Shown: one piece after another, positions 3,355 through 8,970 of the stretch
Layout: each line of letters opens with the position of its first letter
How positions within the stretch are numbered: position 1 is the stretch's first letter
NCBI RefSeq assembly: GCF_003144315.1
Contig: NZ_MPDK01000016.1
Span: 1-57,830 of the forward strand
From: Sulfoacidibacillus thermotolerans
Lineage (GTDB): Bacteria > Bacillota > Bacilli > Alicyclobacillales > SLC66
Direction: 5' to 3'
DNA length: 57,830 nt
Program-made: the position numbers and the translations under genes
Notes under the pieces: generated by a model
What the model was told of the DNA's origin: nothing
Seen by the model: the letters and a program-made list of their open reading frames with translations, nothing else
Database searches by the model: none

Positions 3355-4797
3355 ATGATGACACGACGACAGTTGTGGCTTGCTTTTTCCTTTGTAACAA
3401 CTGCAACGTTTATGGTAAACGTCGACAGCAGTATCGTTAATGTCGCGCTGCCGACGTTATCGCATCAATTTCATTTGAGCGTGGCTTCCTTACAATGGGT
3501 TGTGACGATGTATTTGTTGGTGATCACTGCGATTTTGCCAATCGTTGCGAAACTTGCTGATGTATTCGGACGCAGGCGAATTTTCGTCATTGGTCTTATG
3601 ATTTTTTCTTTGAGTTCATTGTTTTGCGGACTATCCCCCAATTTTCCTGATCTCGTGGCAGCTCGTGGATTGCAAGGCGTAGGGGGAGCCATTATGCAGG
3701 CAAACGTCATGTCAATTGTCACATTAATGTTCCCTGTAGAGATGCGTGGACGGGCACTTGGCACGATCGGTAGCGTGGTTGCGGCAGGAACGTTAATGGG
3801 TCCTATCTTAGGCGGGCTGCTCATCTCCTGGTTTGGGTGGCCTAGTATCTTTTATGTGAATGTTCCCATTGGAATTCTTGGTGTTGCGGGGATTTTACGC
3901 TATGTGCCAGAATTCCCGGGAAAGCCGTTACAACGCAGTTTTGATCTGCTAGGCGGTGTGCTTTTTGCCGCTTTTGTCGTGAGCTTTCTCACGCTGTTTG
4001 CAGATCTGTCTCATGCTGCCGTATCCTATAAAGATGGAGCATTGACGATTGTAACAGCGCTCTTGCTGTATGCATTCATCCGCGTAGAATCGCGCCATCC
4101 AGAACCGCTTGTCGAATTGTCGGTGTTTAAACGCCCACTCTTTTCAGCAGCAATGGGGGCCGGTCTGTTATACTGGATCTTGATGTTGTTTCCGGCTTTT
4201 TTGATGCCGCTATATTTACAAGAAGTCTTGCATTTACCAGTCTGGGAGATTGGACTTTTGATGACGCCACAGAGTATCGCCATGTTGGTGATTTCGCCAA
4301 TCGGCGGTTATTTAAGCGATCGCTATGGGACAGTTGGTCCTGCTGCTTTGGGAATAGGATTGTTTGTGGCGGCTGATATTTGGTTTGCCTCACTAGGGAC
4401 GCACGCATCACTCTTGTCTGCCATTGGTGCACTGACTTTGCAAGGCATAGCGGCTGGTATGTTTAGCTCACCGAACAACGCAGAAATCTTCAACCGAGCT
4501 GACAAGGAAATGACAGGTATTGTCGGCGGATTAATCGCGTCTGAACGCAATTTCGGTCGGTCGCTTGGTGTCACTTTCGCTGCGCTTGCACTTTCACTTG
4601 GAATGCAGCTTTTTAGCGGGACGCGCGTCAAGAGTGCGGAGATGGGAGTGCTGCCAAGCCATGTGTTTGTGACAGGTTTCGATTTTGCGTTTTGGATCGC
4701 AGTTTGCGTCGCACTTTTGGCGATGATGTTTGTCTTTTATCCGCGCTTGCGTAGGGATAAAGGACTACGAGAAGTGGCCATGATAAAAGGAGAGTGA
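3355..4797 (+). CDS. MFS drug-efflux transporter, DHA2 (EmrB/QacA) type
   Basis: A transporter of about 480 residues with some 14 hydrophobic segments, the length and layout of proton-driven DHA2 multidrug exporters. VNVDSSIVNVALPTL near residue 20 is the DHA2 motif D1, and KLADVFGRRRIF near residue 68 is the cytoplasmic loop motif A of the major facilitator superfamily. The start is ATG 3355 or 3358, behind GGGGGG at 3345-3350. It ends in a 4-base GTGA overlap with the padR gene, so the two form one translationally coupled unit. The substrate is not predictable. Control by PadR at the dyad 3298-3321 is likely. Confidence 0.9.
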   Translation: MMTRRQLWLAFSFVTTATFMVNVDSSIVNVALPTLSHQFHLSVASLQWVVTMYLLVITAILPIVAKLADVFGRRRIFVIGLMIFSLSSLFCGLSPNFPDLVAARGLQGVGGAIMQANVMSIVTLMFPVEMRGRALGTIGSVVAAGTLMGPILGGLLISWFGWPSIFYVNVPIGILGVAGILRYVPEFPGKPLQRSFDLLGGVLFAAFVVSFLTLFADLSHAAVSYKDGALTIVTALLLYAFIRVESRHPEPLVELSVFKRPLFSAAMGAGLLYWILMLFPAFLMPLYLQEVLHLPVWEIGLLMTPQSIAMLVISPIGGYLSDRYGTVGPAALGIGLFVAADIWFASLGTHASLLSAIGALTLQGIAAGMFSSPNNAEIFNRADKEMTGIVGGLIASERNFGRSLGVTFAALALSLGMQLFSGTRVKSAEMGVLPSHVFVTGFDFAFWIAVCVALLAMMFVFYPRLRRDKGLREVAMIKGE

Positions 4798-5177
4798 GTT
4801 TTACGGGCAGCCTATCCGCAGATTCAAGACAAAAACGTCAAACAGGCAAGCATTTGCCCGCATTTTTGCTACTATTAATCGCGAAACGACCTGCACATGG
4901 CGGCGCACTGATGACAGAACTCGGCGAGTTGTTGCCGGATTGGACCATAGACAGCGGCGGGGTTTATCGCGTGTTGCGCGACATGGAAGAACATGGGTTG
5001 CTGCACTCTGCTTGGGATACGCCAGACGGTGGTCCACCACGTCGCATCTATATGCTAACTTCAGAAGGGCGGCAAGAATTAGAGCGCTGGCGCGAAGATA
5101 TCTTGGCGCGCAAACGCGGGCTTGATCTGTTTGTGAATATGTATGATGAATGGATCCGGCAAAATCCTGAGTCCTGA
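4794..5177 (+). CDS. PadR-family transcriptional regulator
   Basis: A 127-residue regulator. The PadR winged helix covers about residues 20-100. LPAFLLLLIAKRPAHGGALM and GGVYRVLRDMEEHGLL are the recognition-helix region, and PRRIYMLTSEGRQEL is the wing. A short helical C-terminus probably dimerises. The start is a GTG overlapping the last codons of the efflux gene. PadR proteins next to efflux pumps usually repress the pump until a ligand binds. The first ~18 residues are not typical of PadR, so an internal start is possible. It is followed immediately by the palindromic promoter of the rhodanese operon. Confidence 0.88.
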   Translation: MSFTGSLSADSRQKRQTGKHLPAFLLLLIAKRPAHGGALMTELGELLPDWTIDSGGVYRVLRDMEEHGLLHSAWDTPDGGPPRRIYMLTSEGRQELERWREDILARKRGLDLFVNMYDEWIRQNPES

Positions 5178-5178
5178 C

Positions 5179-5210
5179 TTGATTATATACCCTGCAGGGT
5201 ATATAATCAA
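5179..5210 (+). promoter_or_regulatory. Perfect 32-bp palindrome holding promoter and CstR-type operator of the rhodanese operon
   Basis: Every base from 5179 to 5194 pairs with its mirror in 5195-5210. The left end is a -35 box TTGATT (5179-5184) and TATAAT (5202-5207) is the -10 box, 17 bases apart. The spacer holds TATACC-CTGCAG-GGTATA (5186-5203). CsoR/CstR-family repressors bind TACCC/GGGTA dyads of this sort, and a CstR-like gene ends the operon. Because the element is symmetric, it reads as the same promoter on the other strand. The same TATACC-N6-GGTATA box recurs at 8932-8949. Confidence 0.85.
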
Positions 5211-5289
5211 ACTGTAAACCGAATGGTGTGTGATAAGCATTCGGTCACAACGTGGGATATTAGAGGAGATTTCAGGAGGGATTTTGATT

Positions 5290-5595
5290 ATGGCAGTACC
5301 ACAATGGATGTCAATTGACGTAAAAGAGCGTATGAAAGCCAATAAAAACTTGCAAATTATTGATGTGCGCGAGCCGTACGAGTATAATTCAGGTCACATT
5401 CCTGGAGCGAAGTCGATTCCTTTGGGTCAATTGCAACATCGTCATCATGAAATTGACAAAAACGAGGAAGCGGTCATCGTATGCTTGAGCGGCGGTCGCA
5501 GTTCATCGGCTTGCAATTTCTTGCACAGTATGGGTTATAAAAACATCTACAATCTCATGGGCGGTATGTCTGGTTGGGATGGAGATGTGGAGTAA
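5290..5595 (+). CDS. Single-domain rhodanese (sulfurtransferase)
   Basis: A 101-residue rhodanese domain. DVREPYEYNSGHIPGAKSIP (about 25-44) is the N-terminal rhodanese signature. The active loop VCLSGGRSS carries the persulfide-forming Cys65, and GYKNIYNLMGGMSGW is the C-terminal signature. It moves sulfane sulfur between a donor and a thiol acceptor in the cytoplasm. The start ATG 5290 is chosen for the site AGGAGGG at about 5273-5279. It is the first gene behind the palindromic operator and the first of three rhodaneses in the operon. Confidence 0.93.
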   Translation: MAVPQWMSIDVKERMKANKNLQIIDVREPYEYNSGHIPGAKSIPLGQLQHRHHEIDKNEEAVIVCLSGGRSSSACNFLHSMGYKNIYNLMGGMSGWDGDVE

Positions 5596-5705: not shown

Positions 5706-6359
5706 TTGCGCGTGCTGATCGGAAAAAAGGACCAAGAGGCAATTAAATCGCACTTTGCTGCGTTGACTGGCAAAGTGCGCATGGTGTTTTTTGAGGCAGC
5801 TTTAGATTGCCCGTATTGCCCACAGACGAAACAACTCGTCACTGAACTTGCGGAGTTATCACCACTGCTTGAAGTCGAAGTATATAATTATCATACAGAT
5901 GAAATTGCCGTGAAAAAATACGGAATCAATAAAATTCCAGCCATTGTTTTGCTTGATGGCGAAGAGAAGGACTATGGAATTCGATTCTACGGAATTCCCT
6001 CAGGATATGAATTCTCAACGTTGATTGAAGACATCATGATGGTTTCTACAGGAAAAACCTCCTTGACAGCAAAAACAATCGAGACATTGAAAAATCTCAA
6101 ACAAAAGGTCCATCTACAAGTTTTTGTGACCCCTACCTGACCTTATTGCCCAGCCGCGGTGCGGCTTGCCCATATGGCAGCATTTGTGAGTGATCAGGTG
6201 GTAGGCGACATGGTAGAAGCCTCTGAGTTCCCAGAACTCTCGGATCGATTTGATGTCTATGGGGTTCCTAAGACGATCATCAACGAAACAGGCAGCATGG
6301 AAGGCGCTGTGCCTGAGAACATGTTTATGGAGAAAATACTGCAGACGATTGGACAATGA
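5706..6359 (+). CDS. Two-domain protein disulfide oxidoreductase with in-frame TGA at an active-site Cys: candidate selenoprotein
   Basis: Two thioredoxin folds of the PDO (glutaredoxin-like) family span the 217 codons. The N-terminal fold has the redox motif CPYC at Cys35-Cys38 and the cis-Pro segment INKIPAIV. The C-terminal fold reads VFVTPT-TGA-PYCPAAVR, followed by VGDMVEASEFPEL and VYGVPKTII. Archaeal and thermophile PDOs have VTPTCPYCP here, so the TGA (6138-6140, codon 145) replaces exactly the first Cys of the second CPYC. The frame stays open and conserved for 72 more codons. A hairpin with a GGT loop follows at SECIS spacing. The start is unclear: TTG 5706 or GTG 5712 behind AAGGAG (5688-5693) or the G-run. 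The alternative is a single-base nonsense mutation (TGC or TGT to TGA) or a sequencing error, leaving an N-terminal domain only. Confidence 0.75.
6138..6166 (+). promoter_or_regulatory. In-frame TGA plus SECIS-like hairpin
   Basis: After the TGA (6138-6140) come 11 bases, then AGCCGC (6152-6157) paired with GCGGCT (6161-6166) around the triloop GGT (6158-6160). Counting the T of TGA as 1, the loop is at 21-23. In E. coli fdhF the essential GGU is at 22-24. The base after TGA is C, a context that favours readthrough. No bulged U is obvious below the stem, so SelB binding is not assured. Confidence 0.5.
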
Positions 6360-6375: not shown

Positions 6376-6675
6376 ATGGCGGGATGCATGACGATTACCC
6401 TTCCTGAATTTAAGAGCAAACTCTTTGCGCGCGATCGGATGAAAGTCGTTGACGTGCGTGAGATTTCCGAATATCGTGAGGGTCATGTCGAAGGATCGGT
6501 ATTGATCCCACTCGGTGAACTTCCTCATCGCTTACATGAAATCAGTCCGCATGAAGAAGTGATTCTCGTGTGCCGTTCCGGCAATCGCAGTTCGCAGGCG
6601 TGCGATATCTTGCGTCAGCGCGGCTATACGAATGTTCGCTCTCTGACGGGTGGGCTTTCCGCTTGGGGCGCATAA
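6376..6675 (+). CDS. Second single-domain rhodanese
   Basis: A rhodanese of 99 residues. VVDVREISEYREGHVEGSVL is the N-terminal signature and VCRSGNRSS is the active loop with the catalytic Cys. GYTNVRSLTGGLSAW closes the fold. A GTG at 6373 is also possible; both sit behind AAAGGAG (6359-6365), which overlaps the stop of the disulfide oxidoreductase, so the genes are likely co-translated. The CRSGxR loop differs from the CLSGGR loop of the first rhodanese, which suggests different partners rather than simple duplication. Confidence 0.92.
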   Translation: MAGCMTITLPEFKSKLFARDRMKVVDVREISEYREGHVEGSVLIPLGELPHRLHEISPHEEVILVCRSGNRSSQACDILRQRGYTNVRSLTGGLSAWGA

Positions 6676-6777: not shown

Positions 6778-7164
6778 ATGAATACAACAACGCTTATTCT
6801 TCTGATCATCGCGGTCTTTCTCGTTGTCTATACGTTTACAAAGCGTAAGGCAGGTGTCGGTGTTCGCTCGATTTCAACGAGTCAGTTAGAAGAAGCACTA
6901 AAAAGTAAAGAAGGCAAAACGTTCCTTGATGTGCGAGAACCGGGTGAGTATAAGAGTGGTCATGTCCCTGGGATGAAAAATATTCCACTCAGTCAACTCT
7001 CGCGCCGGTTAAACGAAATTCCCAAGGGGAGCGAAATTTATCTCATGTGTCGCAGTGGTCACCGCAGTGTGCAAGCGGCGCGCATTCTAAAGGGAGCGGG
7101 ATATGAAAATATTATCAATGTTGCTGGAGGCATTACTGCTTGGCGGGGTCCAGTAAAAAAATAA
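6778..7164 (+). CDS. Membrane-anchored rhodanese
   Basis: A 128-residue protein with a single N-terminal transmembrane helix (about residues 4-20, TLILLIIAVFLVVYTF), followed by KRK and then a rhodanese domain. FLDVREPGEYKSGHVPGMKN and the loop MCRSGHRSV carry the signature and the catalytic Cys. The positive KRK after the helix suggests that the rhodanese domain faces the cytoplasm. It would place a sulfurtransferase at the membrane, near quinone-linked sulfide oxidation if that exists. There is a 100-base gap before it with a weak hairpin around 6714-6741. Confidence 0.92.
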   Translation: MNTTTLILLIIAVFLVVYTFTKRKAGVGVRSISTSQLEEALKSKEGKTFLDVREPGEYKSGHVPGMKNIPLSQLSRRLNEIPKGSEIYLMCRSGHRSVQAARILKGAGYENIINVAGGITAWRGPVKK

Positions 7165-7200: not shown

Positions 7201-7494
7201 ATGGCAGATGAGATGCAACGTTTTAATGAACAGATGGAGTATCCTGCAGAAGTCAAAAATCGTTTGCGTCGCATTGAGGGACAGGTACGCGGTGTACTTG
7301 GTATGATGGAGAATGAACGCGGTTGTCAAGATGTGATCACGCAACTTACAGCCGTTCGTTCTGCGGTAGATCGGGTGCTGATGTATATTGTTGGGGCGAA
7401 TATGGAACGGTGTATTCGCAGGGAAGTTGATGAAGGGACACCTGCAGATGACGTGATTCGTCAGGCGATTGAGGCGCTCATGCGCAGTCGATAA
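7201..7494 (+). CDS. cstR: CsoR-family repressor of the persulfide-sensing CstR type
   Basis: A 97-residue all-helical regulator. NRLRRIEGQVRGVLGMME is the family signature. Copper CsoR uses Cys-His-Cys; here Cys42 and Cys71 are kept, but the His position is Asn67 (GANMERC). CstR of S. aureus also has Asn there and senses persulfide and polysulfide by linking its two cysteines. Cu(I) sensing is therefore unlikely. The start ATG 7201 is chosen for GGAGAGGTGG at 7181-7190; a GTG at 7177 is upstream in frame. It is the last gene of the operon and probably binds the TATACC-N6-GGTATA boxes at 5186-5203 and 8932-8949, repressing its own operon. Confidence 0.9.
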   Translation: MADEMQRFNEQMEYPAEVKNRLRRIEGQVRGVLGMMENERGCQDVITQLTAVRSAVDRVLMYIVGANMERCIRREVDEGTPADDVIRQAIEALMRSR

Positions 7495-8931: not shown

Positions 8932-8970
8932 TATACCCCTTATGGTATAGAAGGGAGAATAGGTTGTCAA
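8932..8970 (-). promoter_or_regulatory. Promoter and second CstR-type operator
   Basis: On the minus strand, TTGACA (8970-8965) and TACCAT (8947-8942) are 17 bases apart. The box TATACC-CCTTAT-GGTATA (8932-8949) covers the -10. Its arms and 6-base spacing are identical to the box at 5186-5203. Binding by the CstR-like repressor would block this promoter. Confidence 0.7.

Follow-up and report, generated by a model that had tools for sequence, protein, structure and literature searches.

Selenocysteine (Sec) forms of the protein family recognized by the model TIGR02187, which NCBI names PDO_seleno_TRX, have been described before. In its accessible text, PMC13188914 catalogues them as 'Homolog of AhpF N-terminal domain (Grx-like domain protein)', with a UxxC site and under ABB15282.1, and credits them to Kryukov and Gladyshev 2004. 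The same Sec family is catalogued in the accessible part of PMC9312934, and its Carboxydothermus and Symbiobacterium forms are named in that of PMC1794560. Selenoprotein lists have named this family for two decades, and their accessible portions give it no physiological role. A second set of described systems concerns sulfur control. Excerpts of PMC9918477 and PMC10318464 present the cst and yrk operons (CstR of Staphylococcus aureus, YrkD of Bacillus licheniformis), in which a two-Cys repressor of the CsoR family accompanies rhodaneses, and in which genes for SQR and persulfide dioxygenase are under such control; the CstR-like YrkD controls sqr and pdo, the latter encoding persulfide dioxygenase (PMC9918477, accessible text). 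Most of the CsoR-RcnR family bind G/C runs of four or more, according to the part of PMC10318464 at hand. Finally, selenoproteins with sulfur-handling folds are represented in the excerpt of PMC13188914 by the rhodanese-fusion protein TsoB (NF045694) and a Sec type III SQR (NF049943).

We analysed a stretch of 57,830 nucleotides of Sulfoacidibacillus thermotolerans, hereafter the window, that contains a protein disulfide oxidoreductase (PDO) gene with an in-frame TGA. Like the catalogued AhpF-N-homologue selenoproteins, its product passes the cut-off of the same model, carries Sec at the same UxxC site and has Cys forms in its relatives; it differs from what the accessible descriptions of that family contain by its occurrence in the order of Alicyclobacillus, by five genomes in which a Sec and a Cys paralogue coexist, and by a palindrome-preceded operon with rhodaneses and a CstR-like repressor. 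The likeness to the cst and yrk operons lies in the repressor, the rhodaneses and the sulfur genes mentioned above, and the differences are the selenoprotein PDO itself and a one-mismatch copy of the operator before a sulfur oxygenase reductase (SOR) gene. TsoB and the Sec type III SQR belong to other families, and matches to their models here were far below cut-off. Since Sec forms of TIGR02187 are already catalogued, the protein is not new in itself and adds one more member to a selenoprotein family already described. The CstR-type sulfur regulon around it seems to be new as far as the literature was searched: by title and start of abstract, none of the matches listed described a Sec-PDO in a persulfide operon or sulfur regulon. 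The novelty implied by the initial annotation of this DNA is accordingly lost for the protein and seems to be retained for its sulfur-regulated setting.

Table 1. Features of the Sec-PDO locus, with positions in the window.
Feature	Position	Strand	Remarks
Palindrome of 32 bp, core ATACCCTGCAGGGTAT (5187-5202)	5179-5210		Candidate operator, CstR type
Rhodanese A, single domain, CLSGGRS	5290-5595	+	PF00581 match in a longer frame starting at 5230
Sec-PDO gene, two thioredoxin-fold domains, CPYC and UPYC	5712-6359	+	Alternative start TTG 5706
In-frame TGA, read as Sec, first position of the second CPYC	6138-6140	+	Codon comparison in the order
bSECIS hairpin AGCCGC-GGU-GCGGCU	6152-6166	+	Loop 17 nt after TGA, G first in loop
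Rhodanese B, CRSGNRS	6376-6675	+	PF00581
Rhodanese C, hydrophobic N-terminus, CRSGHRS	6778-7164	+	PF00581
CstR-type repressor of the CsoR family with two Cys; Asn in place of the metal-site His	7201-7494	+	PF02583; PDB 7mq1-7mq3
Thioredoxin-reductase-like flavoprotein, half-length, 188 aa	8332-8898	-	Possible regulon member
One-mismatch copy of the palindrome core	8933-8948		5' of the flavoprotein gene

The in-frame UGA codon and its predicted decoding

The initial annotation had proposed a selenoprotein encoded by a frame at 5706-6359, with TGA in place of the first Cys of the second CPYC and an intact CPYC in the first domain. Both motifs were found as described: the frame reads VFVTPT-TGA-PYCPAAVR and runs on through 72 sense codons until it ends with TGA at 6357-6359, and the CPYC of the first domain occupies residues 35-38 of the reading from 5706. 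The frame itself was borne out and its start was revised, as several relatives show ATG at the place of GTG 5712 in the alignment of the order's PDO genes; GTG 5712 is probably the start, with TTG 5706 a possible alternative. Counted from this GTG, the Sec codon is codon 143. Annotation by the standard code stops the frame at the UGA, and the second active site is then lost. When TGA was read as Cys, the protein scored 286.3 bits against TIGR02187.2 (cut-off 185) over model positions 2-208 of 209, and thioredoxin-fold Pfam models matched either half separately. Among 13 aligned sequences C35 and C38 were invariant, as were, with the same reading of TGA, the residues C-P-Y-C at 145-148. A PDB search returned solved relatives covering the whole length of the protein. 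The closest include 1a8l, aligned over residues 4-214 (E 3.3e-51), in which the C-terminal CPYC corresponds to the Sec site; we take 1a8l and 1j08 to be archaeal PDOs. The near whole-length alignment is shared with these archaeal-type proteins, and Sec for the first Cys of the C-terminal CPYC sets the present protein apart.

We then compared this codon across 59 genomes of the order (Alicyclobacillales; labelled by G-numbers, G000 being the genome of the window). The TIGR02187 cut-off was passed by 39 PDO genes from 34 genomes, and all 39 had either TGA (21) or TGC/TGT (18) at the Sec site, so that TGA and Cys alternate at this codon as the selenoprotein reading had anticipated. The protein is conserved downstream of TGA in the Sec-PDO genes of the order. 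One Sec and one Cys form occur together in each of five genomes (G018, G020, G039, G040 and G041), which provide natural matched enzyme pairs for asking why selenium is used. The opposite pattern, close relatives all with Cys and decay in this strain, was not found. The recent nonsense mutation that the initial annotation had left open is very unlikely, and so are chance and sequencing error, given TGA at the same codon in 20 further genomes of the order and in named records. These records come from Alicyclobacillus mengziensis, A. tolerans and, outside the order, an Ignavibacterium MAG and a Chloroflexi MAG, some of these records being genomes already in the set. Among the matches listed, 80 named loci comprised 8 with TGA, 70 with Cys and 2 not read by the pattern; we draw no Sec/Cys frequency from these counts because they cover only the matches listed and one of the scan patterns, TPTCPYCP, is biased towards Cys forms. 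A tree was built from 61 PDOs (the 39 of the order and 22 of the 80 named loci) with the motif residue masked. The best tree contained 6 Sec/Cys changes, of which at least 2 are forced by well-supported branches, the bootstrap being not fully settled. The tree indicates that Sec and Cys have been swapped at this residue more than once.

The genome of the window (2.87 Mb in 135 contigs, 99.86% complete) encodes all the factors expected for Sec insertion: a tRNA-Sec (anticodon UCA; 65 bits, threshold 47), SelB (368 bits, cut-off 242), SelA (585 bits, cut-off 268) and two SelDs that pass the cut-off and whose genes each contain a single in-frame TGA. The absence of sel genes that would have spoken against the selenoprotein reading was thus not observed. 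All 21 genomes with a Sec-PDO have SelD, 20 have SelA and 19 have tRNA-Sec; G045 (60% complete) is without SelA and tRNA-Sec, and in G054 the tRNA-Sec was not found with the stricter filters. A Sec-PDO was present in 20/30 genomes with SelA or tRNA-Sec versus 1/29 without (Fisher p = 2.3e-7, uncorrected for relatedness), the single case again being the 60% complete genome. A genome with the Sec trait need not have the Sec form, since tRNA-Sec occurs in four (G024, G025, G026 and G036) of the 13 genomes with only a Cys-PDO.

The sequence downstream of the TGA, CCTTATTGCCC-AGCCGC-GGU-GCGGCU, is predicted to fold into a bare hairpin of -8.7 kcal/mol with a stem of 6 bp, a loop of 3 nt and a spacing of 17 nt. 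The accessible text of PMC13188914 defines bacterial SECIS elements (bSECIS) by a loop of 3-9 nt, a stem of 4-16 bp, a G in the first two loop positions, a spacing of 16-37 nt and an MFE <= -7.5, and the hairpin lies within all of these limits. The codons GCC GCG GTG CGG at positions +5 to +8 relative to the UGA were identical in 18/21 (+5) and 19/21 (+6 to +8) Sec genes, whereas several codons are in use at each of these positions in the Cys genes. The Sec genes have 55 columns that are conserved and degenerate, and the five most codon-frozen of these are -1, +5, +6, +7 and +8. Synonymous shuffles with local codon usage gave values below 0.05 for 19/21 Sec versus 0/18 Cys genes, with a median z of -2.52 and -0.49, respectively (Mann-Whitney p = 1.6e-6, uncorrected for relatedness). 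The bare hairpin reached -7.5 kcal/mol in 17/21 Sec genes (the others being G047, G048, G045 and G051) versus 1/18 Cys genes. In one Sec copy of G041 (G041a) and in G019, two stem pairs are changed on both sides (C14-G24 to G-C and G13-C25 to C-G); pairs 12-26 and 17-21 are gone and a shifted stem of 6-7 bp is present. G051 has no hairpin at the usual place (shuffle z +1.0) and carries instead UGUGCG-GUU-CGCACA at a spacing of 23.

Taken with the sel genes and the alternation of TGA and Cys, the conserved bSECIS upholds the selenoprotein reading of the initial annotation: the Sec-PDO is almost certainly a selenoprotein, its UGA being predicted to be decoded by SelB and tRNA-Sec with the help of the hairpin, giving a C-terminal UPYC. 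As a separate observation, the codon preceding the UGA (6135-6137) is ACC in 20/21 Sec genes versus 4/18 Cys genes. This bias at -1 is possibly a constraint outside the hairpin, of the kind of a UGA-context effect.

The operon and its candidate operator

Behind the palindrome, the window carries in this order rhodanese A, the Sec-PDO, rhodaneses B and C and the CsoR-family repressor. The repressor has the two conserved Cys and lacks the metal-site His of the family: it reads Asn-x3-Cys at a place where two solved members, InrS (5fmn) and 6ahx, have His-x3-Cys, as does CsoR. A pattern found 15 CsoR-family proteins in the 39 PDO loci, and these have Asn (14) or Gln (1) at this position. The best PDB matches of the repressor were 7mq1-7mq3, which we take to be pneumococcal CstR and which the file names csoR. 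A small gene for a PadR-like regulator (family assigned by eye) lies just 5' of the palindrome, at 4794-5177; it is conserved in G057 and G058 together with the gene for an MFS-type transporter (by eye) that precedes it. On the other side of the operon, the flavoprotein encoded on the minus strand matches its reductase model only at positions 2-108 of 300 and may therefore not be a complete reductase. Its homologues directly precede the Sec-PDO in G047 and G045.

BLAST searches with the window proteins only revealed a rhodanese gene within 3 kb of the PDO in 15/21 Sec versus 5/18 Cys loci, and a CsoR-family gene within this distance in 11/21 versus 1/18. These associations track taxonomy as much as Sec. 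The six Sec-PDOs without a rhodanese within 3 kb are G020a, G018b, G041a, G019, G030 and G050. In the two-copy genomes the rhodanese neighbour belongs to the Cys copy in G018, G020 and G041 and to the Sec copy in G039 and G040. A Sec-specific link of the rhodanese cluster is confounded with taxonomic family and is reversed in the first three of these genomes. Other sulfur genes were seen near PDO loci: in G056, genes for rhodaneses, a TauE-family protein and SOR follow the Sec-PDO in the same direction, and in G051 and G040 a CoA-disulfide-reductase-like/rhodanese fusion lies near the locus.

The palindrome core has the form ATACCC-N4-GGGTAT, a consensus derived in this analysis and not from a published CstR footprint, and its G/C runs are of three. 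It occurs exactly three times in the genome of the window, the reversed control giving 0. The first site precedes the Sec-PDO operon. The second precedes a rhodanese-MBL gene (PF00581 and PF00753; best PDB matches 3tp9 and ETHE1 4chl), followed by an SQR-like gene whose top PDB match is named NADH oxidase, ahead of many sulfide-quinone reductases. The third, on contig C71, precedes a thioredoxin-reductase-like gene of 338 residues that scored 157 bits (below the cut-off of 343). Allowing one mismatch added 2 sites, and the reversed control also gave 2 genome-wide, so that the copy 5' of the half-length flavoprotein gene is weak alone. The other of these 2 sites stands before the SOR gene on contig C35 (434 bits, cut-off 400), ahead of its probable start. 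For both the rhodanese-MBL and the SOR genes the site falls inside the longest possible frame, and the matched domains start further in.

At the PDO loci of the order we searched the region from 1700 to 420 nt upstream of the Sec/Cys codon. The palindrome was present with at most one mismatch at 32/39 loci (22 exact, 10 with one mismatch); three of the remaining loci had a site with two mismatches only and four had none, two of these four (G038 and G033) having exact sites further out. Among the 80 named loci listed, a looser form of the palindrome was found at 8/10 loci titled Bacillota or Alicyclobacillus versus 0/70 others, a count in which some records are titled only 'bacterium', flanks differ in length and several of the 8 were already counted above. 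The operator with at most one mismatch was carried by 16/18 Cys-PDO and 16/21 Sec-PDO loci, and in all five two-copy genomes the better site belonged to the Cys copy. It was rejected as a Sec-specific element on these counts. Sec is not tied to sulfur regulation, the Cys copies carrying the operator at least as often.

The number of exact copies varied widely, from 0 in 17/59 genomes to 8 in G019, 20 in G020 and 74 in G018, and the palindrome is not regulon-specific in these last three because of such numbers; the reversed control gave one copy in each of three genomes. On contig C1 of G018, which has far more copies than elsewhere in the order, some stand in rows at intervals of about 320 nt, as at 160711-161366 and 1907686-1908339. 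The copies of this genome are perhaps a repeat family.

The persulfide-responsive operon proposed by the initial annotation gains inferential support from the CstR-like repressor with its Asn, from the matches to 7mq1-7mq3 and from the palindrome standing before the operon and other sulfur genes.

A predicted role in reactive-sulfur handling and its alternatives

We propose the following sequence of events. The CstR-like repressor, bound at the palindrome, would keep the operon from rhodanese A to the repressor gene off until persulfides or polysulfides modify its two Cys, whereupon the operon would be derepressed. Such control is probable from the context described above. The selenolate of the Sec-PDO would then attack the sulfane sulfur of rhodanese or protein persulfides or of polysulfides, the partner Cys of UPYC would resolve the selenenylsulfide, and H2S or a thiol would be released. 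A thioredoxin-reductase-type flavoprotein would restore the Sec-PDO, the half-length flavoprotein of the window being one candidate and the protein of 338 residues behind the site on C71 another. We consider the whole chain likely from Sec decoding through persulfide control, with the enzyme chemistry left aside. That the job of the Sec-PDO is reductive and exerted on persulfides or polysulfides is suggested by its context, and we hold this with moderate confidence. The enzyme would complement an oxidative branch formed by the SQR-like, rhodanese/persulfide-dioxygenase-like and SOR genes, which have the same kind of site in the same genome. In its full form, our proposal is tentative and somewhat short of an even chance: the Sec-PDO may be a selenium-based persulfide/polysulfide reductase, directly controlled by a sulfane-sulfur-sensing repressor and opposing the SQR, persulfide dioxygenase and SOR of the same regulon in sulfur-handling Bacillota. 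Its conserved place behind a CstR-type palindrome, and beside rhodaneses in its own family, makes the reductive handling of reactive sulfur a specific, testable role for these long-listed proteins.

The main alternative is that the Sec-PDO serves as a general cytosolic reductant of disulfides and peroxiredoxins, its place in the operon being due to the disulfide stress that sulfane sulfur provokes rather than to direct persulfide reduction. Its closest solved relatives are archaeal PDOs, as noted above, its weaker matches (below cut-off) are AhpF-type models, and 6/21 Sec-PDOs lie outside any rhodanese cluster, all of which fits this explanation. The conservation of the palindrome upstream across PDO loci does not, nor does the presence of the other sites of this genome before the rhodanese-MBL/SQR-like and SOR genes, and we regard a general reductant as unlikely.

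That the repressor is a copper sensor and the operon a copper/thiol stress response, which would make the persulfide link wrong, could be argued from the best NCBIfam model of the repressor, the copper sensor RicR. The score is far below cut-off, however (57.4 versus 175), and the Asn or Gln at the metal-site His position in all 15 CsoR-family proteins found in the PDO loci, the best PDB matches to the CstR structures 7mq1-7mq3, and the sulfur or redox genes behind the exact palindromes of this genome make a copper response improbable.

Rhodaneses can act as selenium carriers, and the operon could be read as a selenium-delivery unit in which rhodanese perselenides and the Sec-PDO feed selenide to SelD, for selenium assimilation more than for sulfur defence. 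A SelD gene with one in-frame TGA does follow the Sec-PDO on the same strand in two genomes, at 0.3 kb (G040, contig C10) and 1.5 kb (G039, contig C153), and the second SelD in the genome of the window adjoins a sulfite-exporter-family gene. In the 14 Sec-PDO genomes of the same taxonomic family (draft assemblies), on the other hand, the SelDs found were encoded on different contigs or at distances above 250 kb, and the same operator stands at Cys-PDOs in genomes without SelA, tRNA-Sec and SelD (e.g. G003, G013 and G015). Selenium delivery as the main purpose is very improbable. As to the surroundings of these genes, DUF302 and rhodanese genes lie upstream of the Sec-PDO in G040. In the genome of the window, the weaker-scoring SelD (contig C59) is located 3' of the gene of the TauE/SafE sulfite-exporter family, with a DsrE-family gene close by, and the other SelD is on contig C24.

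A nonsense mutation, pseudogene or sequencing error, with a one-domain product (TGA as stop does leave an open first domain of 144 residues with CPYC), is negligible and was rejected, as TGA is kept in 21 genomes together with the downstream protein, the hairpin and the Sec machinery.

A reassigned code, with TGA as Trp or as a global sense codon, was likewise rejected because the gene itself ends in TGA, its homologues have Cys and a dedicated tRNA-Sec with anticodon UCA is present. About 1.2 kb from the gene of this tRNA we noted a TPP riboswitch (228-332 of locus L001, minus strand), with which no link is supposed.
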